Source: Furfurilactobacillus milii (lineage in GTDB: Bacteria > Bacillota > Bacilli > Lactobacillales > Lactobacillaceae). From it: a stretch of DNA of 64,000 nucleotides. The notes under the pieces are model-generated. The model made no database searches and was not told the origin of the DNA. It saw only the letters and a program-made list of their open reading frames with translations. The stretch lies in the NCBI RefSeq assembly GCF_021654115.1, contig NZ_JAIWJF010000002.1, positions 248,001-312,000 on the forward strand, given 5' to 3'. A program made the position numbers and the translations under genes. Below, piece by piece: positions 24,980 through 60,401 of this stretch; the stretch's first letter is position 1, and every line of letters begins with the position of its first letter.

Positions 24980-26179
24980 TTGGCTAAATTAACTGTTTCT
25001 GATTTAGATTTAACTGGAAAAAAAGTTTTAATGCGTGTTGACTTTAATGTGCCGATTAAAAACGGCGTGATTGGTAACGACAACCGAATCGTGGCTGCAT
25101 TACCTACGATTAACTATGTTCTGGATCACGGTGGCCGTGCCATCTTATTCAGTCACTTAGGTCGTGTTAAGACTGAAGAGGACAAAAAGGAATTATCCAT
25201 GCGTCCTGTTGCAGAACGCTTGAGTAACTTATTGGGCAAACCTGTAACGTTTGTACCAACTACCCGTGGTCCACAACTTGAAGACGCCATCAACAACTTG
25301 AAAGACGGCGAAGTTCTGTTATTCGAAAACACCCGTTTTGAAGATTTGGATGGCAAGAAGGAATCTGGTAACAACCCTGAATTGGGTCAATACTGGGCTT
25401 CACTTGGCGACGTTTTCGTTAACGACGCCTTTGGTACTGCTCACCGTGAACATGCCTCAAACGTTGGTATCGCAACGGCCATGAAAGCAGCCGGCAAGTC
25501 AGTTGCTGCTGGTTTCTTAATGGAAAAGGAAATCAAGTTCTTAGGTAACGCTGTTGATAACCCTGTTCACCCATTCGTTGCTATCTTGGGTGGTGCTAAG
25601 GTTTCTGATAAGATCGGTGTTATCGACAACTTATTGAGCAAAGCTGACAAGGTTATCGTTGGTGGTGGGATGGCTTACACCTTCTTTGCTGCCCAAGGCC
25701 TATCAGTTGGTAACTCATTGCTTGAAAAGGACAAGATCGACACAGCCAAAGCAATCATTGAAAAGGCTGGCGACAAGCTTGTATTGCCAATCGACTCTGT
25801 TGTTGCTAAGGAATTCAAGAATGACTCACCTGCAGAAACTGTTGATGGTTCAATTCCTGATGGCTACATGGCTCTTGACATCGGTCCAAAGTCTGTTGAA
25901 TTATTTGAAAACACTTTGCGTGATGCTAAGACTGTTGTTTGGAACGGACCAATGGGTGTCTTCGAAATGCCTAACTTTGCTAAGGGTACCTTAGCTGTTG
26001 GTAAGTTCTTGGGTGACTTGGATGCTACAACAATCGTTGGTGGTGGTGACTCAACTGCTGCCGTTCAACAATTGGGTGTTGCAGACAAATTGACTCACAT
26101 CTCCACTGGTGGTGGTGCTTCCCTTGAATACCTTGAAGGTAAGACTTTACCTGGGATCGCAGCAATCAGCGACAAGTAA
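24980..26179 (+). CDS. pgk: Phosphoglycerate kinase
   Basis: Transfers phosphate from 1,3-bisphosphoglycerate to ADP. The start codon is TTG after an excellent GGGAGGAAAC site. The N-terminal [15 protein letters not shown] motif, the LGRVK/HLGR region, [15 protein letters not shown] and the C-terminal GGGDSTAAV nucleotide loop are complete; 399 residues is standard. Codon bias is strong. It has its own terminator, followed not directly by tpi but by a long non-coding element. Confidence 0.98.
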
Positions 26180-26198
26180 TTTAATACCTTTCTACTTA

Positions 26199-26241
26199 AC
26201 GCCCGCCAATCTGTTTCTTAACAGGTTGGCGGGCGTTTTTG
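26199..26241 (+). terminator. pgk terminator
   Basis: AACGCCCGCCAA and TTGGCGGGCGTT arms followed by TTTTT, 20 bp after the stop. Confidence 0.9.
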
Positions 26242-26261
26242 TGTTTTGAGTGGTTAAGGAC

Positions 26262-26738
26262 GCTTGCGGTTGTCAACATTGAAATGCGCCGTGGGACCGG
26301 TTCAAGCCTCCTGAAATTCGGAGTCTTTCACCTCGCCGTGAAGCCTCATGAGAACCTGAGTCTCCACGACCGTCCGTGCTGTAAATTCGGCACAAAACCA
26401 CCGAATTAACACCACTTGCACGTCTTGATTTCAATGTTGACGCCCTCCAGCTCATAGTCATATAACCTTGAAAAGCCCAAGAAGTGGTCGAGCAACAAAT
26501 TTAAATGTGTACTAATATATCTGTTGAAGGTCCTGGCGACTTATATGTGAGTGGAGATGACTGAAGACAGAGTTTCGTGTCGACAATACTTGATGGCGGG
26601 TTTTGCCATTTAGTATTGTGGGACGAGTTCTGAAACGTGGTTTTCGGTTCAGAATCGAGTTGAAGACCGTGTACTTCAGCGGGCTGAAACGTTCCCCACG
26701 AAACGGCGTCTTCGGTCATCGCAACGACAGGTCACTGC
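26262..26738 (+). ncRNA. Candidate large structured RNA R1, copy A (between pgk and tpi)
   Basis: No supported reading frame covers this ~480-nt stretch. It aligns along its length with 35697-36151. Helices: P1, 14 bp perfect (26272-26285 with 26428-26441); P2 (26337-26348 with 26357-26368); P3, 7 bp (26384-26390 with 26401-26407); P4 (26583-26597 with 26605-26619); P5 (26624-26634 with 26648-26657); P6 (26662-26667 with 26708-26713). Most of these differ in sequence but not in pairing from copy B. A 45-nt segment at 26291-26335 is nearly identical in both. G-U pairs favour the plus strand. It follows the pgk terminator, and no convincing promoter or terminator of its own is seen. Confidence 0.75.
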
Positions 26739-26843
26739 TTACCAAAGCAATCAGGCAAGGTGAAACTGGCTTTTTAGGATCGATTTCACTACAATGCATG
26801 TGTAGGAGAAAGAGTTGTGAGTGTTCGTTTGGCAACGAGTGCT

Positions 26844-26872
26844 TTGACAGATTAAAAGAGTAATGCTAAGAC
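26844..26872 (+). promoter_or_regulatory. Probable tpi promoter
   Basis: Perfect TTGACA (26844-26849), 17-bp spacer, weak TAAGAC (26867-26872), about 25 bp upstream of the tpi start. Confidence 0.45.
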
Positions 26873-26896
26873 CCATTATGAAGAGGGGGCTAACCC

Positions 26897-27658
26897 ATGC
26901 GGATTCCAATGATTGTTGGAAATTGGAAGATGAATAAGACTGCGGACTCAGTAGAATCGTTTGTAAATGGTATTAGAGGCAATTTGCCTAATGCGATGCA
27001 GTTAGAAACAGCTATTTGTGCACCTGCTTTGTTTTTAGAACAAATGGTTGATCAGACTCGCGACATGCCTTTAGAAGTTGGCGCGGAAAATTGTTACTTT
27101 GAGGACAATGGTCCGTTTACCGGTGAAACCAGTCCATATGCGTTAAGCAAAGCTGGCGTTGATTTTGTTATTTTAGGACATTCTGAGCGTCGGAAGATTT
27201 TCCGTGAAACCGACGAGATGATTAATTTAAAAGTTCAAGCCGTTTTTCGGAACCATATGCGACCGATTATCTGTTGTGATGAAACGATGGGGCAGCGAGA
27301 ATCTAATGATGCTGTTCACTGGGTTGTTGCTCAGGTAATTGAGGCGTTAAAGGGCGTTGATGAGGAGCAGGCAGGAACTGCGATTATTGCGTATGAGCCA
27401 AGCTGGGCGATTGGTGTGGGTACACCGGCGTCACCTGATCAAATTGAGGAAGGCTGTTATCTGATTCGTCAAACGGTCGCAGACGTTTACGATGATGAAA
27501 TTGCTGACGAAGTGCGAGTATTATATGGCGGTTCTGTTAAGCCTGCAAATATAAACACGATCATGCAGAAACAGGACGTCGATGGGGTTTTGGTCGGCAA
27601 TGCTAGCCTCCAACCTGAATCATTTCTGGAACTTATTAGCAATGATCCTGGAAAATAA
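26897..27658 (+). CDS. tpi: Triosephosphate isomerase
   Basis: Interconverts dihydroxyacetone phosphate and glyceraldehyde-3-phosphate. The N-terminal NWKMNK lysine, the catalytic His in VILGHSERRK (near residue 95), the catalytic Glu in AYEPSWAIGVG (near 168, with loop 6) and the phosphate-binding YGGSVKPANI are all present. 253 residues is standard. AGAGGGGGC precedes the ATG. Codon bias is less extreme than in gap, pgk and eno, so it may be expressed at a lower level; it is separated from pgk by the R1 element. Confidence 0.97.
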   Translation: MRIPMIVGNWKMNKTADSVESFVNGIRGNLPNAMQLETAICAPALFLEQMVDQTRDMPLEVGAENCYFEDNGPFTGETSPYALSKAGVDFVILGHSERRKIFRETDEMINLKVQAVFRNHMRPIICCDETMGQRESNDAVHWVVAQVIEALKGVDEEQAGTAIIAYEPSWAIGVGTPASPDQIEEGCYLIRQTVADVYDDEIADEVRVLYGGSVKPANINTIMQKQDVDGVLVGNASLQPESFLELISNDPGK

Positions 27659-27670
27659 TTGCTCATAATC

Positions 27671-27699
27671 TTGATAGTGAAACGCGTAACACATATAAT
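27671..27699 (+). promoter_or_regulatory. eno promoter
   Basis: TTGATA (27671-27676), 17-bp spacer, TATAAT (27694-27699). TGAAACGCGTAACA within the spacer resembles a cre with the central CG inverted (12 of 14). Confidence 0.7.
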
Positions 27700-27736
27700 G
27701 GTAGGGAAGTCATTGCGACTACATTTACCCATATAA

Positions 27737-29068
<1,332 letters not shown>

Positions 29069-29102
29069 TTTCGTATTGAAATAGGTTGTTATGATAATAA
29101 AA

Positions 29103-29133
29103 TTCCTCACTTTTCGAAGTGGGGATTTTTTTG
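29103..29133 (+). terminator. eno terminator
   Basis: TCCTCACTT-ttcg-AAGTGGGGA hairpin followed by a T7 run. Confidence 0.9.
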
Positions 29134-29271
29134 TCGCCAAGTTTTGATAGATTATGAAATTCTAAAGATTCAAAAGAAAAGCTGAAATATACATGAAGTC
29201 ATTAATGTGTTTACTTTGTTCACCTATACTGAATTTGAATGTTTTTGGCAACAATGAAACGGGGGAGCTAC

Positions 29272-29934
29272 ATGGCAACACAACGTGAGGTGGCAAAACG
29301 GCATGCGCTATTAGAACGAATGGCCGTTGTTTTTATGCGGGAAGGCTTTAGCCAGCTAACAATGAACGACCTGATTAAAGTAATGGGGGTTTCACGAAGA
29401 ACGGCTTATAAATATTTCAGCTCGAAAGAAGACATTGTGCACGCTGTTGTTAAGTTGTACTTAGACTACATAGAGGACCTTGACATGCCTCAGCTTAATG
29501 GGGATGTGGCAAACTTTTTTCGTCAGTTTCAAATGCTGTTCGATCAATCTTTGACAATTTCACGAACAATTTCTGATGAATTCTTGGCTGACCTGAAGTC
29601 AGCAAATGATTCAGATTATCGCAATTTGCAAGATGCACTTAATCAGCAACAGCAGCAAGCAATTATTTACTTCGAGACCGGTGTAAAGCGCGGACTTTTT
29701 CGCACGTATCAGTGGGATGTTTTATTGTTGCAAGATCGCGTGATGGTGCGCGGCCTAATTGACCGTCACTTTTTGTTGCGCCATAGTTTGAATCTCACGA
29801 AGGTATTGACTGATTACTATAATTTAAAGAAGACGCAGTTGCTTTTACCTGAGCAGTTAAATGTAATTGATGATCAGCCTGTCCGGTTGATTATTGAATA
29901 TTTTGTGAATGAGTATAATCGAACATTCTTATAA
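29272..29934 (+). CDS. TetR-family transcriptional regulator, 220 aa
   Basis: The N-terminal helix-turn-helix (LTMNDLIKVMGVSRRTAYKY followed by FSSKEDIV) is typical of TetR proteins. The ATG at 29272 follows GGGGGAG. The C-terminal ~160 residues form the helical ligand domain, with a basic middle and no recognised ligand signature. It lies just upstream of a ClC-type antiporter gene in the same direction (28 bp between stop and start), so it may regulate that transporter. Confidence 0.85.
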   Translation: MATQREVAKRHALLERMAVVFMREGFSQLTMNDLIKVMGVSRRTAYKYFSSKEDIVHAVVKLYLDYIEDLDMPQLNGDVANFFRQFQMLFDQSLTISRTISDEFLADLKSANDSDYRNLQDALNQQQQQAIIYFETGVKRGLFRTYQWDVLLLQDRVMVRGLIDRHFLLRHSLNLTKVLTDYYNLKKTQLLLPEQLNVIDDQPVRLIIEYFVNEYNRTFL

Positions 29935-29962
29935 AAACTGTCCTAAAAAGAGAGATGATCAT

Positions 29963-31525
29963 TTGAAGAAAAAAAGTAAACGCCGACTTTCGCACGATCT
30001 AACGCGGGTTGGAACTGTCATCACAGGTTTAGCAGTTGGATTAGTGGCGGGGCTTATTGTTAGTTTGTTTCGCCTGGCAATTGAGCATGGTCTTGATTTG
30101 GTGAAAATGGGTTATGCGGCGATGCATCACCAACCTTGGTTAATTGTACCGTGGCTTTTGGGCATGATTATTTTGGGCATTTTAGTGGGGCTACTGGTTA
30201 AGACCAGTCCACAAATTAGTGGGTCTGGGATTCCCCAAGTTGAGGGTCAATTGGCTGGGGAGTTTGACGAACCGTGGTGGCCAACACTCTGGAAAAAGTT
30301 TGTTGGTGGCATTGCAGCGATTGGTTCTGGTCTGATGTTGGGTCGGGAAGGTCCTTCGATTCAACTTGGGGCTGCTGTGGGGCAAGGCTACGCCACGCTT
30401 CGTGGCCATCAAGGGACTAATCGCCGGGTCGCAATCGCCAGTGGGGCAGCGGCAGGTTTGTCAGCGGCATTCAATGCACCGATTGCCAGTACACTATTTG
30501 TTTTGGAAGAAATTTATCATAATTTTTCACCGTTGGTTTGGCTGACATCGTTAACCAGTGCTGTTGTCGCAAACTTTGTGTCACTGGCATTTTTCGGACA
30601 AACGCCAGTTTTACATATTCCGTACTCCAGTGGACTACCATTACGTGATTACGGTCATTTGATCGTATTGGGCATTATTTTGGGCTTATTAGGACGGTTG
30701 TATCAAACCGTTTTGCTGCGTTTGCCAAGTTGGTACGCTAAGTTAAGACTGCCGCGTTATTTAGACGGCATTGTGGCACTGCTACTAACCGTTCCTGTTG
30801 GTTGGTGGTGGACGGCCAGTTTGGGCGGCGGTAATAGCGTTATTTTGGATTTGGCACGCATCCATCCAGGCATTTGGGTGCTCATCGGGCTGTTTGTGGT
30901 TCGGTTCGTATTCTCGATGGTGGCGTATGGCTCTGGATTACCCGGTGGGATCTTCTTACCGATTTTAACGTTAGGTGCCGTCATCGGTGCAATTTATGGC
31001 CGGGCGATGGTCATGATGGGCTTACTGCCTAGTATTTACGTGGTCAACTTAGTTATTTTTGCAATGGCAGGATATTTCGCCGGAATTGGGAAAGCACCAT
31101 TCACGGCGATTCTCTTGATTACGGAAATGGTCGGGTCATTGCAACATTTGATGCCTTTAGCCGTGGTTTGTCTAGTTGCCTATATTACAGTAGATGTGTG
31201 CGGTGGCGCGCCGATTTATGAATCCTTATTGGGACGAATGTTGTCACCGACGGAGGAACGAGCTGCTGGTTTTACGGACCGAATTGAAGTACCTGTGTTC
31301 GATGGTTCGTTTTTAGTTGGCCATCAGGTACGGGAATTTAGATGGCCGACCAATGCTCTATTAATTGGTGTTCATCGTGGCGAACGGCAGATTATTCCGC
31401 ACGGCGATACGATTTTGCGTGCCGGTGATACCTTGATTGTGGAAACACAACATGATAATCGTGCCTTTATTCGTGAACGAATTGCCGGGATGGCAGAGCA
31501 AATTAGTGTGCGTGGTGAAGACTGA
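29963..31525 (+). CDS. ClC-family H+/Cl- antiporter with C-terminal TrkA-C domain
   Basis: The ClC selectivity motifs are present: GSGIPQVEG, GREGPSIQLGA (with the gating Glu of antiporter types), AAFNAPIAS and GSGLPGGIFLPILTLGA. About ten membrane helices occupy residues 15-420, followed by an RCK_C/TrkA-C regulatory domain (GDTILRAGDTLIVETQHDN). I choose a TTG start at 29963 after AAAAAGAGAGATG; a GTG 54 bp upstream would lie inside the TetR gene. The protein likely exchanges chloride (or fluoride or nitrate) for protons and may serve acid resistance. Confidence 0.88.
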   Translation: MKKKSKRRLSHDLTRVGTVITGLAVGLVAGLIVSLFRLAIEHGLDLVKMGYAAMHHQPWLIVPWLLGMIILGILVGLLVKTSPQISGSGIPQVEGQLAGEFDEPWWPTLWKKFVGGIAAIGSGLMLGREGPSIQLGAAVGQGYATLRGHQGTNRRVAIASGAAAGLSAAFNAPIASTLFVLEEIYHNFSPLVWLTSLTSAVVANFVSLAFFGQTPVLHIPYSSGLPLRDYGHLIVLGIILGLLGRLYQTVLLRLPSWYAKLRLPRYLDGIVALLLTVPVGWWWTASLGGGNSVILDLARIHPGIWVLIGLFVVRFVFSMVAYGSGLPGGIFLPILTLGAVIGAIYGRAMVMMGLLPSIYVVNLVIFAMAGYFAGIGKAPFTAILLITEMVGSLQHLMPLAVVCLVAYITVDVCGGAPIYESLLGRMLSPTEERAAGFTDRIEVPVFDGSFLVGHQVREFRWPTNALLIGVHRGERQIIPHGDTILRAGDTLIVETQHDNRAFIRERIAGMAEQISVRGED

Positions 31526-31634
31526 GGAATTAACTGTTTGCATACGTCTAGTAGCATGCTCATACTAGCAATCCCCACCATTTTATGTTAAATTAGTTGA
31601 GACATACCGCGAAGTTTGAATGGGAGGAACCACT

Positions 31635-31877
31635 TTGTATAATTTTTTGTTAACTGCACTGATTGTGATCGCAATCTTAATCGTTATTGCAGTCATGATG
31701 CAACCCACGAAAACAGATGATGCATTAGGTGCCTTGTCTGGCGGCGGTGCAAACGACTTATTTGCTCAACAAAAGTCACGGGGCTTTGAAGGCTTTATGC
31801 AACGGGTTACAGTAATCCTTGGCATTTTGTTCTTTGCTATTGCCTTGGCGTTAGTGTACTTGTCCTCGCATAAGTAG
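31635..31877 (+). CDS. secG: Preprotein translocase subunit SecG
   Basis: An 80-residue protein with two membrane segments (residues 3-22 and 56-75) and between them MMQPTKTDDALGALSGGGAN, typical of Gram-positive SecG. The start is a TTG after GGGAGGAACCACT; starting at the upstream ATG would put the ribosome binding site inside the gene. SecG assists protein export with SecYE and SecA. It is followed by a terminator before the esterase gene, yet the order secG-esterase-rnr-smpB is the common Firmicutes arrangement. Confidence 0.93.
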   Translation: MYNFLLTALIVIAILIVIAVMMQPTKTDDALGALSGGGANDLFAQQKSRGFEGFMQRVTVILGILFFAIALALVYLSSHK

Positions 31878-31911
31878 GCTTGTTTTTTGACGACTAACGT
31901 TTACAAATTGG

Positions 31912-31974
31912 TGATGGCCTCGTGCCATCTTCATTGATGTATGACAAAGCTGGGCTTAGTCCCGGCTTTTTTTC
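31912..31974 (+). terminator. secG terminator
   Basis: A GATGGC/GCCATC hairpin, then GCTGGG-cttagt-CCCGGC followed by a T7 run (to about 31973). Confidence 0.75.
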
Positions 31975-32004
31975 ATGCAATTTTTCAGTGAAAGGATGGA
32001 AAGA

Positions 32005-32766
32005 ATGACAATTCATTTTCGTCAACCAGAACCACTGTTTATTGAGGCGGGTGCAAACGCAGTCTTGTTGCTGCATGCATACTCTGGCAGTAGCAATGAC
32101 ATGGGGATGATTGGGCGTGGCTTGGCGCGTGATGGTTATACAGTCTATGCCCCAATATTCGCCGGTCATGGCACCATGGAGCCCAAAGATATTATCACAA
32201 AGGGCGGCGTGGCCGCTTGGCTGAAGAACGCGCAAGATGCAGTGGCCTTTCTAAAAGCACACGGTTATCAACAGATTGCAGTCTTTGGTCTATCTATGGG
32301 CGGCTTGTTTGCCACGCGCTTATTGGAAATTGATAATACGTTAGTCGGTGGTGGGACGTTTGCATCGCCAGTTATTCGGGTTGGTCAAACGAATGTGCCA
32401 CAAAGCTTTTTAAGTTTGAGCAACAAAATTTATTCACGTACACAAATGTCAACGGATGAAAAGCAACAAAGTCTCGACTGGTTAGCTCAGCACAATCCAG
32501 AACAGTTGAGCGACATTGAAGCCTTTGTCCAAACACAAGTGGCAGCAAATTTACAAATGATTAATAAGCCATTCTTTATCGCCCAGGGTGATGCGGATCA
32601 AATGATTGATCCTGGCAGTGGGGCGGCTTTTAATGAACGAATGGAGAGTTTAAATAAAGATGTCACGTTTAAGCTGTATCCGAACGCGGGCCATGTTTTA
32701 ACAGTAAATAACGCGCATCACCAATTGCAAACAGACGTTGAAGCATTTCTTGAACGACTGTTTTAA
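32005..32766 (+). CDS. Carboxylesterase (Est30-like alpha/beta hydrolase)
   Basis: An alpha/beta hydrolase of 253 residues. The oxyanion region is LLLHAYSGSSNDM, the nucleophilic Ser lies in FGLSMGG (near residue 97), the Asp is probably in QGDADQMIDP and the His in YPNAGHVLTV. This matches Est30/YvaK carboxylesterases, which cleave short-chain esters and usually lie between secG and rnr, as here. The ATG at 32005 has GAAAGGATGGAAAG upstream; two earlier ATGs are too close to the signal. Confidence 0.88.
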   Translation: MTIHFRQPEPLFIEAGANAVLLLHAYSGSSNDMGMIGRGLARDGYTVYAPIFAGHGTMEPKDIITKGGVAAWLKNAQDAVAFLKAHGYQQIAVFGLSMGGLFATRLLEIDNTLVGGGTFASPVIRVGQTNVPQSFLSLSNKIYSRTQMSTDEKQQSLDWLAQHNPEQLSDIEAFVQTQVAANLQMINKPFFIAQGDADQMIDPGSGAAFNERMESLNKDVTFKLYPNAGHVLTVNNAHHQLQTDVEAFLERLF

Positions 32767-32795
32767 CCTAACGCGAAAGTAAAAATGAGGTAATT

Positions 32796-35162
32796 ATGAC
32801 AGAAAGCAATTTACAACAACAAATTTTGACGTTTTTAAACGCCAATCAGGAGGGCTCGTTTACAGCGGCCGAAATCGGCACTGCACTTAAACAACCAGAA
32901 GCTGAATTCACGCTAAGCGTGCAGGCACTTGCTGGGTTGGAACGTGCTGGCAAAGTGGCTGTTACGGATACCGGTAAGTGGGCCATTGTTAAAGTGGCAG
33001 CTGGGTTATCAGGAACTTTCCATGGTAACGACAAGGGGTTTGGTTTCGTCGCATATGATGATGAACAACCAGATGCTTACATCAATCCAGATCATACCAA
33101 GCATGCAATGACAGGTGACACGGTTGAGATGAAGATTTTACGCCCATCTAAACCGGGATCTGATCGTGGACCTGAAGGTGAAGTAACAAAAGTGACTGAG
33201 CGCCACTACACACAAATCGTTGGTGAGTTTAGGTCCAAACGTGACGCCAAGTTGCCTAGTGTTATTGGTGAAGTGCTCCTTAAAGATAAGAAACTCGGCA
33301 GTTATACGTTTGATGTACTCGACGGCGGTATTCATCCAGTTGATGGTGAAGTTGTCACGGCCGATGTTACCGGTTATCCAACGGATCTCAATCCACAGTT
33401 GTTAAGTGGTGTGGCCACGAAGGTGATTGGGAACGCCGACGAACCAGGTATCGATATTCTCCAAATCGTTTACGCTCATGATGTGCCTTCCGAATTTCCA
33501 CAGGAAGTATTGGATGAAGCCAATGCAATTTCTGATACGGTGCAAGAAGCTGACAAGGCTGGTCGAGTTGATATTACTGATCAACCGTTAGTTACCATCG
33601 ATAGTATTGAAAGTAAGGACTTGGATGACGCAGTCGTTGCGTGGAAACTGCCAAATGGTAACTATCATCTGGGCGTATCCATTGCCGACGTTAGTTACTA
33701 CGTGAAGGAAGGTTCTGCGCTCGATAAAGAAGCTTACAAACGTGGAACTTCTGTTTATCTGACTGACCGCGTTATTCCAATGTTGCCAAAACGCTTATCA
33801 AACGGCATTTGTTCACTGAACGAGGGCGTTGAACGTTTATCAATGACCTGTGACATGGAAATTGATGGTACTGGTAAGGTCGTTAGCCATAAAATTTATC
33901 CTAGCTTGATGAAGAGTCATGCCCGGATGACTTATAAGGGCGTTAATAAGATTTTGGAAGCTCATGATGCCAAAACCATGGAACGTTATGACAGTCTTGT
34001 TGGCATGTTTGAAACGATGGCAGAATTACACAAGATTCTGGTTAAGAAACGTCACCAGCGTGGTGCAATTGACTTCGATGCTCCAGAAGCAAAGATCATT
34101 GTTGACACAGAAGGGCATCCGACCGACATTGAGTTACGTGAACGTGGCCTGGCAGAACGGATGATTGAATCCTTTATGCTGGCTGCTAATGAAACCGTGG
34201 CTGAACATTATGACCGGATGCATGTCCCATTCTTATACCGTGTCCATGAAACACCAGATGGTGATCGGGTAAAGAGTTTCTTTGATTTGTTGAATGTCTT
34301 TGGAATTAATGCCAAGGGTGATCCAAACAACCTGAAACCGAAGATGTTACAGTCTGTGTTGAAGGAAGTTGCCGGAACACCTGAAGAGCAGATGGTTCAA
34401 ACCATGATGCTTCGTTCCATGAAGCAGGCAAAATATTCAGATCAGCCGCTAGGACACTTTGGTCTTGGTGCTGAATACTACACACACTTCACGTCACCAA
34501 TTCGTCGTTATCCAGATGACATGGTTCACCGGATGATTCGCTGGTATGCAGCAAACGGTGATAGTGATGCTGCTAAGGCAAAATACGCAGATAAGCTACC
34601 ACAGATTGCCCAAGATACTTCTGAACGCGAGCGTCGTTCAATCGATACTGAGCGGGCTACCGATGACATGAAGAAGGCCGAATACATGGCTGATCACGTT
34701 GGCGAGGATTTTGATGCGGTTGTCAGCTCTGTTCTGAAATTTGGGATGTTTGTGGAATTGCCAAACACGGTTGAAGGACTTATTCACATTTCTAACATGA
34801 AGGATGACTTTTACGATTACGATGAAAGTCATTTAGCCCTGATTGGTGAACGGCATCATCACATCTTCCAAATTGGCCAGCCAATCAAGGTTCATTTGGA
34901 AAAGGTCGATAAGGATGCTGCCGCAGTGGACTTTACCATCGTGGACCCACGGACTGCGCCAACGACAGACATCCGTGTGGCCCATGATAATCATGGCAAT
35001 GGCGGCCGTCGTGGAAACGATAACCGTGGTAACCGTAACTTCCATAACAATGCCAAACGTGATGAGAAGAATGGTGGCAAGAAATTTAACCACTATCAAA
35101 GTAATCGCAATAAGGCTGGTCGTAGTGGTAAAACCAATTTTCACGGTGACCGGAAAAAGTAA
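32796..35162 (+). CDS. rnr: Ribonuclease R
   Basis: A processive 3'-5' exoribonuclease that digests structured RNA. Domains in order: N-terminal winged helix (1-65), cold-shock domains (about 70-220; LSGTFHGNDKGFGFVAYDDE), RNB catalytic domain (about 255-590; DSIESKDLDDAV with the metal-binding Asp residues, and HFTSPIRRYPD), S1 domain (about 640-720), and a 70-residue basic Asn/Gly/Arg/Lys-rich tail that helps unwind RNA. It is followed by smpB; RNase R, SmpB and tmRNA act together in trans-translation. Confidence 0.96.
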   Translation: MTESNLQQQILTFLNANQEGSFTAAEIGTALKQPEAEFTLSVQALAGLERAGKVAVTDTGKWAIVKVAAGLSGTFHGNDKGFGFVAYDDEQPDAYINPDHTKHAMTGDTVEMKILRPSKPGSDRGPEGEVTKVTERHYTQIVGEFRSKRDAKLPSVIGEVLLKDKKLGSYTFDVLDGGIHPVDGEVVTADVTGYPTDLNPQLLSGVATKVIGNADEPGIDILQIVYAHDVPSEFPQEVLDEANAISDTVQEADKAGRVDITDQPLVTIDSIESKDLDDAVVAWKLPNGNYHLGVSIADVSYYVKEGSALDKEAYKRGTSVYLTDRVIPMLPKRLSNGICSLNEGVERLSMTCDMEIDGTGKVVSHKIYPSLMKSHARMTYKGVNKILEAHDAKTMERYDSLVGMFETMAELHKILVKKRHQRGAIDFDAPEAKIIVDTEGHPTDIELRERGLAERMIESFMLAANETVAEHYDRMHVPFLYRVHETPDGDRVKSFFDLLNVFGINAKGDPNNLKPKMLQSVLKEVAGTPEEQMVQTMMLRSMKQAKYSDQPLGHFGLGAEYYTHFTSPIRRYPDDMVHRMIRWYAANGDSDAAKAKYADKLPQIAQDTSERERRSIDTERATDDMKKAEYMADHVGEDFDAVVSSVLKFGMFVELPNTVEGLIHISNMKDDFYDYDESHLALIGERHHHIFQIGQPIKVHLEKVDKDAAAVDFTIVDPRTAPTTDIRVAHDNHGNGGRRGNDNRGNRNFHNNAKRDEKNGGKKFNHYQSNRNKAGRSGKTNFHGDRKK

Positions 35163-35201
35163 GTTTAAGACCAAAATGCTGAACGAAAGGCAGGCGTGAA
35201 C

Positions 35202-35672
35202 ATGGCCAAACGAAAACAAACTGGCAACGACGCGCTGGCAAATAATCGTAAGGCGCGTCATGAATATTCGATTCTCGACACATATGAAGCTGGTATTTCA
35301 CTAACCGGGACGGAAATTAAATCCGTTCGGGCGGCCCGAATCACGATTGGTGACGGGTTTGTGTCGATCAAAGATGGGGAAGCTTACCTCATGAATGTCA
35401 ATATTGCCGAGTTTACGCAGGGAAATCGTTTCAACCACGATCCGTTGCGTACACGAAAGCTATTGCTACATCAAAAAGAAATTAGTAAGTTACAGTCGGC
35501 AGTGTCCCAAAAAGGGATGACCATTGTGCCATTAAAGGTTTACATCAAGCATGGTTTTGCGAAGGTGCTGATTGGTGTGGCACAAGGAAAGCATTCTTAT
35601 GACAAACGTGAGACATTGAAGAAACGCGACCAACAACGTGATATCGATCGTGCATTGTCGCGCCGCCGATAA
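35202..35672 (+). CDS. smpB: SsrA-binding protein SmpB
   Basis: SmpB binds tmRNA and brings it to stalled ribosomes. The 156-residue sequence shows [55 protein letters not shown]-type motif (here [17 protein letters not shown]) and a basic C-terminus. I use the ATG at 35202; the upstream in-frame GTG is two codons earlier. AAGGCAGGCG lies upstream. No terminator separates smpB from the R1 copy B that follows, so that RNA may be its 3' UTR. The partner tmRNA is at 59978-60341. Confidence 0.96.
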
Positions 35673-35696
35673 TCACTTTTGTAGGGTCTTTACTGC

Positions 35697-36210
35697 CGCT
35701 TACGGTTGTCAACAATGACACGCTCGCTGTGGGACCGGTTCATGCCTCCTAAAATTCGGAGTCTTTCACCTCGTCGCCAAGACTCGTGAAAAGCCGAGTC
35801 TTGGCGACCGTCCGTAACCTAAATTCGAGTAAACCACTCGAATTAACGTTACCTGCACTGCTCGGTATCACTGTTGACGCCCTTCAGTTACTGTAGAGTG
35901 TTTGGTTCGCATCGATTGTGATTGCGGGCCGCAGATCAAATAACGATAGCTATTGAGTGGAGTTGACTAGAAATAGAGTTCCGTGTCGGCCACACTTGGC
36001 GGCAGGAATTTGGCCGCTTAGTGTGGCGGGATGAATTATGAGACGTGTTCTTCGGCTCATAATCAAGGATGAAAACCGCGATTTGTGCGGGTTGAATCCG
36101 GTCCTCAGGGAACGGCGTTTCTGGTCGACGTAACGGCAGAAGAGACAGTGAATAATGAACAAAAAATGTAAGAGAAAACGATTCTGCGCTAATTGCAGGA
36201 TCTTTTTTTG
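35697..36210 (+). ncRNA. Candidate large structured RNA R1, copy B (after smpB)
   Basis: Homologous to 26262-26738 but diverged. Helices: P1 (35708-35721 with 35865-35878, 12 of 14 pairs), P2, 14 bp perfect (35773-35786 with 35795-35808), P3, 9 bp perfect (35822-35830 with 35836-35844), P4 (35989-36003 with 36013-36027), P5 (36032-36042 with 36056-36065) and P6 (36071-36076 with 36117-36121). The segment 35729-35773 is nearly identical to copy A. The element ends in an intrinsic terminator, so its 3' end can be placed near 36208. The ~500-nt interval has no supported gene. Confidence 0.77.
36180..36210 (+). terminator. Terminator of R1 copy B
   Basis: GATTCTGC-gctaatt-GCAGGATC stem (one U-G pair) followed by a T7 run. 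Confidence 0.85.
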
Positions 36211-36238
36211 TGTACTTTTAGGAATTTAAAAGAGATCA

Positions 36239-36269
36239 CAAAAAAGACTCATCCGAAGATGAGTCTTAA
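36239..36269 (-). terminator. apf terminator
   Basis: AAGACTCATC-ttcg-GATGAGTCTT followed by a T6 run on the minus strand, 28 bp past the gene. Confidence 0.9.
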
Positions 36270-36297
36270 ATCAGAACATAGTTAGATTAACAGTTGA

Positions 36298-36972
36298 TTA
36301 CCAACCGCGGTATGCAGCCCAGTGGGAAGCAGCAGCTGACCATGAACCGTAACGTGAAACAGCGTAAGCAGATGCAACACGTTCTTGGTTAGCAGCAGAG
36401 TAGTCACCGTTCAACTTGTCAGCACTCAATTGGTATTTACCAATGTACTGACCGTTACGAGCGCTGTAACTACCACCAGATTCACCGGCAGCGATATAAG
36501 CCATGGCAGCTTCGTCAGATGATGAAGCTGTTGAAGTTGAGGCAGCCTGTGTGTTTTGTGTGGTTGAAGCTTGTGTAGTTTGAGCTTGTTGAACAGGGGC
36601 AGTCTGTTGTGCAGGAGCAGCTTGCGTAGTTGTTTGAGCTACTGGAGCTTGTGTCTTAGCAACAGGCTGTGTTTGTGCAACTGGTGCAGCTTGTTGAACA
36701 GGGGCTGCAGCTTGTGTTGTCGTAGTTGTTGTAGTGTTGGAAGTGCCGTCAGGGATAATCAAGTTTTGACCAACGTAGATTAAGTCTCCCTGGTTTTGCA
36801 ACTGGTTAGCGTTGATGATTGCATCAATGCTTGTGTTGTTGGCATATGCCAATGCGGAAACAGTGTCTCCGCTCTTAACAGTAACGTTTGAGTCTGCGTT
36901 TGCGGCAACAGTTCCAGCGGCTAATAAAGCACCGGCGCTTAAAGTAGTTAACAAAATTTGTTTGATCTTCAT
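36298..36972 (-). CDS. apf: LysM-containing secreted surface protein, Apf-like
   Basis: The precursor has a signal peptide (MKIKQILLTTLSAGALLAAG, cleavage near ANADS), one LysM domain (about residues 30-75: VTVKSGDTVSALAYANNTS) that binds peptidoglycan, a long Gln/Thr/Ala/Pro linker (about 78-150), and a C-terminal ~70-residue domain with AAGESGGSYSARNGQYIGKY and ending in SHWAAYRGW. This is the layout of aggregation-promoting factors of lactobacilli, whose C-domain resembles transglycosylases. GGAG precedes the ATG at 36972. A hairpin-rich leader and a strong terminator suggest high expression. Confidence 0.85.
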   Translation of the reverse strand: MKIKQILLTTLSAGALLAAGTVAANADSNVTVKSGDTVSALAYANNTSIDAIINANQLQNQGDLIYVGQNLIIPDGTSNTTTTTTTQAAAPVQQAAPVAQTQPVAKTQAPVAQTTTQAAPAQQTAPVQQAQTTQASTTQNTQAASTSTASSSDEAAMAYIAAGESGGSYSARNGQYIGKYQLSADKLNGDYSAANQERVASAYAVSRYGSWSAAASHWAAYRGW

Positions 36973-37100
36973 GTAGAAATTTTCACTCCTATATTGTGTA
37001 TGGCGTCGCATCTTAATTGGCGACGCGCTTGGCAACCCCTCACGAGGATTCGTGGCTGGGGTGTTGTTCTCTTCCAAACAACGATGCCTACTATACATGG
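36973..37100 (-). promoter_or_regulatory. apf 5' leader with two stable hairpins
   Basis: On the minus strand the leader folds into CAACACCCC...GGGGTTG, with inner CACGA/TCGTG, and into GCGTCGC/GCGACGC closer to the gene. Stable leaders are known for highly expressed surface-protein mRNAs and may slow decay. No riboswitch consensus was recognised. Confidence 0.45.
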
Positions 37101-37353
37101 TGTAAATAACAACGAAATACCGTAGACATTACAAAATCAGAGCGTTTTGTCACATAAAGATGCTTTTGAAATATTTTGTAACATGATAATGTTTATAACT
37201 CGAAAATTATTGAAGTGTTGCCGAACTGACGGCAATGAGCATGATTACAAACATGTAACTATCCCTCAAAACGTTGATTTAACGGCATTTGTCGCACATA
37301 AAAACGCCGTGAATCATCAAATAACGATAATCACAGCGAATTTCTTTACTAAT

Positions 37354-59977: not shown

Positions 59978-60341
59978 GGGGGTGTTCTGGATTCGACAGG
60001 TATAGGTCGAGCTTGAATTGCGCTTCGTGGGTTGCGTCCACGTAAAAACGCTACCTAATTTTTATCTGCAAAAGATAACAATTCTTACGCTTTAGCTGCT
60101 TAATTGTAGCTTGACGTAGATCCGTCCGTTACGGCCCAGGTGGCGGGTTACGGGTCTCAAAAATTTGGGCTACGCTGTTAACTCACGCCTGAAGTGAGCA
60201 GAAGAGATTAATCAGGCTTAGCTAATCACGGTTGCCCGGTCAAACGGCGTTTTGGTTAGTGAAATTTAAATGGTTTGACTATGAGCGTAGAGGTTCGGGT
60301 GGCGATATGCTTGGACGCGGGTTCGATCCCCGCCACCTCCA
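59978..60341 (+). ncRNA. ssrA: Transfer-messenger RNA (tmRNA)
   Basis: tmRNA rescues stalled ribosomes and tags the unfinished protein for degradation. The 5' end GGGGGTGTTCTGGATTCGAC and the 3' end GGTTCGATCCCCGCCACCTCC form the tRNA-like half: GGGGGTG pairs with CACCTCC, and a T-arm with TTCGATC is present. CCA is not encoded. The tag frame (60068-60103) starts at the GCA resume codon and reads AKDNNSYALAA then TAA, close to other lactobacillar tags. Several pseudoknot-like repeats follow. Its partner gene smpB is at 35202-35672. Confidence 0.96.
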
Positions 60342-60401
60342 TAAAACTATACTAGTAATGAACTGAATGAGATTAATGCTCATTCTAGATTCATAGAGAA
60401 C

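Follow-up and report, generated by a model that had tools for sequence, protein, structure and literature searches.

A folded intergenic repeat in the probable rnr-smpB 3′ UTR of Furfurilactobacillus milii is one copy of an old family whose fold is kept by selection

The stretch that follows smpB in Furfurilactobacillus milii is one copy, here called copy B, of a folded repeat that occurs at least 49 times in the genome. The best explanation, which is given a probability of about 0.55, is that copy B is a member of an old intergenic repeat family, similar to MITEs and REPINs, that was inserted into the 3′ UTR of rnr-smpB and is now kept by selection. The element would have used single-stranded DNA for its spread, with replication forks as the probable place, and its folded units would be bound by a putative protein and would now be kept by the host. 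Structured repeats between bacterial genes tend to be classed as the debris of mobile elements in decay. In this genome, purifying selection on the fold was measured over dozens of copies at fixed sites, including sites into which no neighbouring gene reads, and there are hints that the two arms fold on opposite strands. An old question, namely whether such repeats serve their host and whether they do so as DNA or as RNA, thus becomes testable in food-grade bacteria.

The features of interest are listed in Table 1, where positions are those of the window, the 64,000-nt stretch of F. milii DNA that was analysed. Two covariance models were used, R1 built from right arms of the element and R2 built only from left arms. 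Both copies in the window were part of the R2 training set, which bears on the scores of their left units.

Table 1. Positions of the two repeat copies and of the neighbouring features in the window.
Feature	Position	Strand	Evidence
pgk terminator, ahead of copy A	26198..26237	+	terminator scan
Copy A left unit	26259..26450	-	model R2, 196.4 bits
Copy A right unit	26546..26734	+	model R2, 56.7 bits, E 1.7e-16
Triosephosphate isomerase gene, beyond copy A right unit	starts 26897		NCBIfam TIGR00419
rnr, ribonuclease R	32796..35162	+	NCBIfam TIGR02063, E 3.7e-246
smpB, SsrA-binding protein	35202..35672	+	NCBIfam NF003843, E 7e-64 (35199-35672 scanned)
smpB stop codon	35670-35672	+	
Copy B left unit (L arm)	35695..35887	-	covariance model R2, 203.9 bits
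Variable middle of copy B	35888..35951	.	
Copy B right unit (R arm)	35952..36143	+	model R2, 59.5 bits, E 2.2e-17
Intrinsic terminator behind copy B	36180..36209	+	terminator scan; stem 36180-36202, T run to 36209

A sequence-only reading had noted that no terminator separates the smpB stop codon from copy B and that a terminator closes copy B, and these observations were borne out. A scan of positions 25500-37200 found no terminator-like site on the plus strand between 35672 and the terminator stem, and no plus-strand consensus promoter was detected between 34991 and the terminator, which is presumably that of rnr-smpB. The stretch 35670-36225 was predicted to fold at -215.3 kcal/mol, compared to -162.1 ± 6.6 kcal/mol for 100 shuffled sequences (z = -8.1), none of which was as low. 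Given its position between smpB and the terminator, copy B is very probably part of the rnr-smpB 3′ UTR, into which transcription would read through from smpB. The tmRNA gene (ssrA) lies at 59978-60344, approximately 24 kb downstream of smpB.

That part of the earlier reading stands; the claim that the RNA belongs to rnr-smpB is not supported. According to this claim, copy B is a functional 3′ UTR RNA that is processed out of the message and tied to RNase R or to trans-translation. The position, the stable fold and the persistence of the element at the same site in two relatives (G002 and G005), along with an element behind smpB in a third (G001), are all in its favor. Nevertheless, it is very improbable given that at least 49 copies adjoin unrelated genes, that copy A stands behind the pgk terminator, and that G003 lacks the right arm and G004 lacks the element while both still possess smpB followed by a terminator. 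Furthermore, the fold is kept equally between divergent genes, where no neighbour reads into the element, and σ70-type promoter signals are not enriched before the units; RNase R as the explanation is likewise not supported. An RNA unique to rnr-smpB is ruled out by the copy number. Copy B is best described as a passenger on the rnr-smpB message. Folded structures are ordinarily expected to slow 3′ exonucleases, and copy B may still do so on this message. As a result of the insertion, a long folded sequence lies in the 3′ UTR of rnr-smpB, where RNase R itself would encounter it.

When copy B was searched against its own genome, at least 47 matches were found with the best 40 of 97 candidates scored. 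A strand-aware profile applied to 28 fetched stretches identified at least 49 elements, consisting of 27 with two arms, 18 with a left arm only, three with a right arm only and one fragment. The two-arm copies are on average 71% alike and 26 of the 27 are 425-492 nt in length, the other (512 nt) being cut by the end of its stretch. The longest closed frame per copy spans 37-100 codons. In three respects the family resembles a MITE: inverted homologous arms, no long open frame, and a length under 500 bp in nearly all copies. The neighbouring open frame upstream runs in the same direction as the element at 32 of 49 places and in the opposite direction at the remaining 17, and the gap to it may be as short as 8 nt. 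Judged by eye, several copies are located between a gene and its terminator and others behind a terminator, and some copies are found between divergent genes. At two places (L026:16325-16879 and L037:4018-4602), an inverted pair of left-type units was found instead of a left-right pair.

The second copy in the window, copy A, extends from about 26255 to 26740. At the corresponding site before tpiA, the distant congener G004 has a different palindromic sequence (L090:970-1445) that represents a dispersed repeat family of its own, with 24 matches in G004, four of which are inside the query stretch. This family is unrecognised at the copy A site by models R1 and R2.

A full element is composed of a left arm, a middle and a right arm, where the arms are two related units of about 190 nt in inverted (divergent) order. 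The left consensus aligned to the reverse complement of the right consensus with a score of 119.5, compared to 89.6 ± 6.9 (maximum 110) for 200 shuffles and 86.5 in the direct orientation. The right arms of both copies are matched by R2 (Table 1), a model trained on left arms, and R1 picks up a left-type unit on brewery plasmids (E 2.4e-20). By sequence, the right arm is homologous to the left arm in inverted orientation and has diverged from it. The modeled fold of the unit is branched and not a simple palindrome, with a terminal stem that closes a junction bearing three hairpin arms. Base pairs that were kept while both sides changed were observed at 42 of 55 pairs among 31 right arms and at 32 of 51 pairs among 44 left arms. 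Counted as cells with both sides changed, there were 222 in the right arm (shuffled mean 59) and 212 in the left arm (shuffled mean 52), and for neither arm did any of 500 shuffles reach the observed value; slid controls gave 8-24.

The history of the smpB site may be followed in other genomes of the genus, of which G003 is probably F. milii C5, G002 probably F. milii FUA3583 and G005 probably F. rossiae DSM 15814. In the distant G004, a terminator recognised by eye lies within about 20 nt of smpB and there is no element. The whole element is present at the site in G002 and G005 with a terminator behind it, G003 has the left arm alone followed by a terminator (all by eye), and an element is also present behind smpB in G001. 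Since G004 has smpB and a terminator without the element while the relatives have the element, copy B is regarded as an insertion between smpB and its terminator. By this comparison, the insertion predates the divergence of F. rossiae from F. milii. For the sampled sites, 302 of 325 comparisons were filled, 22 were shortened and one was empty; these comparisons are not independent and were drawn from fetched loci, mostly of G000, G002, G003 and G005. The close relatives had no cleanly empty site that carries a target duplication, nor was any recent movement seen over the sampled sites of this clade. Recent transposition in the clade is rejected on the basis of these sampled sites, which are old and mostly filled. 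The Y1 transposases (PF01797), the sole mover family searched, had no match in G000, G002, G003 or G004 and were found in two of six genus genomes. With no match in four of the six genomes, mobilisation by a resident Y1 transposase in the manner of a REP/RAYT system is rejected.

Divergence at orthologous sites indicates what has happened to the copies since they were inserted. In these tests each site contributed one pair, either the most diverged pair or the own genome against the most diverged, and strand and rate counts cover arms with at least 75% of the model positions. Against G005, the arms of the own genome diverged by 0.044-0.076, compared to 0.245 for the middle, 0.200 for fourfold sites and 0.145 for the outer 60-nt flanks. 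Against G003, the corresponding values were 0.031-0.059, 0.213, 0.139 and 0.097. Unpaired sites in the arms were also slow (0.056-0.076), and the left arms of left-only units were conserved like those of full elements (0.051 vs. 0.068, and 0.037 vs. 0.051). Double changes from one Watson-Crick pair to another numbered 13 in left arms (40 site pairs) and 21 in right arms (29 site pairs), compared to 0-2 at each of eight slid positions. Because orthologous double changes exceed the slid controls and the arms are slow, each locus has retained its fold since the insertion. The comparison of orthologues shows that the units, fixed at their sites, are under selection for the fold. Some of the double changes could come from gene conversion or from template switching in quasi-palindromes.

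These two processes are central to a further alternative, in which the elements are inert remains of an old MITE and owe their conservation only to gene conversion and to template-switch correction of palindromes. The inverted ends, the lack of a long open frame and the loss of arms at some sites in some species are what such remains would display. It is a very unlikely account, however, since conversion among two-arm copies with their average likeness of 71% should raise, not lower, the divergence of orthologues, and since even the unpaired arm sites evolve more slowly than the outer flanks (0.097-0.145) and the fourfold sites (0.139-0.200).

Between divergent genes, 11 arms had a rate of 0.075 and six double changes in 481 pairs, in comparison to 31 Watson-Crick double changes in 2738 pairs for all 62 arms. 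Tandem and convergent places resembled divergent ones, with the exception of 10 arms opposed by both neighbours (rate 0.042, one double change in 437 pairs), where the changes are too few to tell. Over this small number of sites, the fold is kept whether or not neighbouring genes read into the element. On the same few sites between divergent genes, RNA made by read-through is rejected as the main target of selection.

The two arms differ in the strand that is predicted to fold better. In copy B this is the minus strand for the left arm and the plus strand for the right arm, and across the genome it was the antisense strand in 44 of 45 left arms and the sense strand in all 30 right arms, although the copies share descent and are not independent. 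Single changes to GU or AC, given in sense letters and with structures predicted on the favoured strand, followed the same division, with 56 GU and 19 AC in right arms and 22 GU and 51 AC in left arms. This direction held in most neighbour classes; the subsets included left arms with an opposite upstream gene (10/13) and three right-only sites (5/4). With pairs predicted from both strands, the counts were 26/13 for right arms (p 0.053) and 14/25 for left arms (p 0.11), the difference between the arms having a p value of 0.012. With the structures of the opposite strand, the counts were 26/14 and 31/34, respectively (p 0.11). The asymmetry is thus weaker than the favoured-strand counts imply. 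A mutational strand bias would not account for the difference because it would push both arms the same way. Of 26 Aerococcus units, 24 fold better on the corresponding strand, although the shared pairs point the other way with three GU cells against nine AC cells. Taken together, these data suggest that the left arm folds as the antisense strand and the right arm as the sense strand, or, put differently, that the folded strand of each arm is the one whose 3′ end points outward.

A pattern of this kind might be expected if the units were trans- or cis-acting RNAs, such that low-level transcription of one or both strands yields a folded arm transcript to which a protein binds. Strong covariation is typical of RNA, covariation with GU pairs would suit it, GU tolerance being a classic sign of RNA, and the excess of GU over AC in right arms with the reverse in left arms agrees with a folded transcript. 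Set against this, sites of the σ70 type, whose consensus was the one scored, were not enriched upstream of units (1/25, 4/40 and 2/78, compared to 2.2, 3.3 and 7.3 in shuffles), paired units may be as close as 32-44 nt, and left-only units are conserved though several are in tandem gene order with the folded strand antisense. A few units do have a σ70-type site upstream; a dedicated σ70 promoter in the middle is ruled out by the lack of enrichment before units. On balance, RNA units are a possibility to be taken seriously but not the expected outcome.

The orientation of the elements offers another perspective. In this genome, 45 of 49 elements are aligned with the strand of positive GC skew, compared to 174 of 244 predicted genes (p 4e-4), and six of eight elements opposed by both neighbouring open frames are likewise aligned with the skew. 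Members of the IS200/IS605 family use the lagging-strand template and spread via single-stranded DNA (PMC6006769). By analogy, the skew orientation of the elements would fit a spread through single-stranded DNA at forks, and a spread that probably took place there would in turn account for the orientation. Independence from neighbouring transcription, the lack of promoters and the GC-skew orientation together tilt the interpretation toward the folded strand acting as DNA. A bolder extension, which is best regarded as tentative and rather doubtful, is that the folded repeats in divergent pairs constitute a Lactobacillales-wide, fork-oriented element with opposite strands selected at its two ends, in other words an element of single-stranded DNA that has been domesticated for replicating or organising the chromosome. 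If this were true, there would be dozens of marked sites per genome that are read by a putative protein, and the enterococcal EFAR repeats would be one named branch.

Comparison with catalogued RNAs and repeats places the family near several known systems. In the window, tmRNA and one tRNA alone reached the gathering score of an Rfam 15 family. Permissive Rfam 15 scans of the two copies returned nine and five matches, each far below the gathering score, and nine loci of relatives returned none; a known Rfam RNA is ruled out given that the element did not reach any gathering score. A literature search on repeats and structured RNA in Lactobacillus, Furfurilactobacillus, Lactobacillaceae, Aerococcus and Lactobacillales did not find the family among the matches listed, as judged from titles and the openings of abstracts in a collection with few subscription papers.

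As judged by description, the likeliest named relatives are the EFAR repeats. EFAR has a length of about 170 bp, an L-shaped fold and a habit of insertion into stem-loops. Efa-1 is described as a 163-nt pair of stem-loops with 65 copies in E. faecalis (PMC2267715) and EFAR as an enterococcal MITE (PMC3733652). Like the present units, EFAR and Efa-1 are folded, intergenic, of many copies and of similar unit length, all by description only. The tests of divergent pairing, selection at fixed sites and GC-skew orientation covered Furfurilactobacillus or Lactobacillaceae. REPINs and BIMEs are characterised as two inverted palindromic units about a less conserved spacer, extragenic and with singlets beside doublets (PMC3116915), an arrangement that matches the inverted pairs around a variable spacer and the single units beside pairs seen here. 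REPs are 20-40 bp, tagged with GTAG and accompanied by RAYT transposases (PMC3733652). In contrast, the present units contain internal hairpins and measure about 145-200 nt, GTAG is at the inner end in only seven of 79 units, and four of six genus genomes had no match to a Y1 transposase. Bacterial MITEs such as bcr1, RUP and NEMIS are short and intergenic, with inverted ends, a fold and no long open frames (PMC10969869 and PMC3733652), as is the present element; their inverted repeats are given as about 4-30 bp (PMC10969869), whereas the inverted arms here are whole folded units under selection. There was also no parent insertion sequence in the Y1 family searched.

The family extends beyond the genus. 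A blastn search at E 0.001 matched five of 60 genomes, namely this one and four further members of the genus. With model R2, 36 of 201 Lactobacillaceae genomes were matched, representing 10 of 40 genera. Here and in the other many-genome model searches, copy numbers are lower bounds with 6-12 candidates scored per genome. Two R2 matches (g5 and g50) scored 185.2 bits, which is the score of the Pediococcus and Loigolactobacillus plasmid copies, and are probably plasmid-borne. The pairing of units outside the genus was counted from 79 of 81 matches, the plasmid-borne L169 and L170 being left out: 23 of 24 close pairs were divergent with spacers of 32-366 nt, and 31 of 79 units were alone in their stretches. 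Unit length was 146-198 nt (median 182), and the inner end carried GGAG in 56 units, GTAG in seven and neither in 16. Complementarity of the flanks, which would mark insertion into stem-loops as in EFAR, was found in other genera (z = -4.0 within genomes) and in Aerococcus (0 of 200 permutations); none was found in the own genome or G005, or for the outermost flanks of pairs in the other genera. Because the stems of the units may themselves run past the ends of the model, no weight is placed on this complementarity.

Across the order, R2 matched nine genomes out of 246, including five from other families with scores of 22-32 bits, and the other genomes of the class draw had no match at E 1e-4 (0/397). 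Of these five other-family genomes, two are multi-copy, with at least 47 and at least 52 matches when 40 candidates were scored in each; another had 13 weaker matches and a fourth had none with that query. The family of these genomes is identified as Aerococcaceae by a match on a plasmid of Aerococcus tenax. A third covariance model, R3, was built from the forms outside Lactobacillaceae and matched 37 of 395 genomes, or 16 of 81 genera in four families. In family f3 there were six such genomes, five with 5-6 matches of six scored. One f3 unit matched 70 plasmid records, of which 68 are from Enterococcus and the 15 listed share one score, and for this reason f3 is probably Enterococcaceae; two other f3 units had no plasmid match. 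R3 found no match in the own genome and gave E 0.15 on the window. Since R3 is blank here, the tie from Lactobacillaceae to Aerococcaceae and Enterococcaceae rests on R2 matches of about 12-32 bits, on the fold that the forms have in common and on the multi-copy nature of some of these matches. Thus, the family has multi-copy relatives in other Lactobacillaceae, with Aerococcaceae linked more weakly and Enterococcaceae probably included; the models link repeats of several lactic acid bacteria, and perhaps the enterococcal ones too.

With respect to mobile DNA, plasmid searches with units from four other genera and with one f2 unit had no match, nor did a search of a phage collection. Viral contigs contained two exact pattern matches, and the models report one at E 0.34. 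A left-type unit that is 79% identical was found on mobilisable plasmids of the beer-spoilage bacteria Pediococcus damnosus and Loigolactobacillus backii, with a MerR regulator on one side and a carboxymuconolactone decarboxylase gene on the other (L078:4001-4198 and L079:2501-2698). Its presence in two genera is likely due to transfer between them. On an E. faecium plasmid (L268:1501-1678), a copy that neither R3 nor R2 reports is 72.5% identical to an f3 unit and lies about 500 bases from a lincosamide resistance gene. In the Aerococcaceae genome G366 (L270-L288), most units share 80-91% identity with the query unit, and some are tandem instead of divergent; among the matches listed, many are located at 300-410 kb of the chromosome. 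In G293 (L229:2400-2700), a single unit stands between a terminator that by eye is T-box-like and the start of a long open frame.
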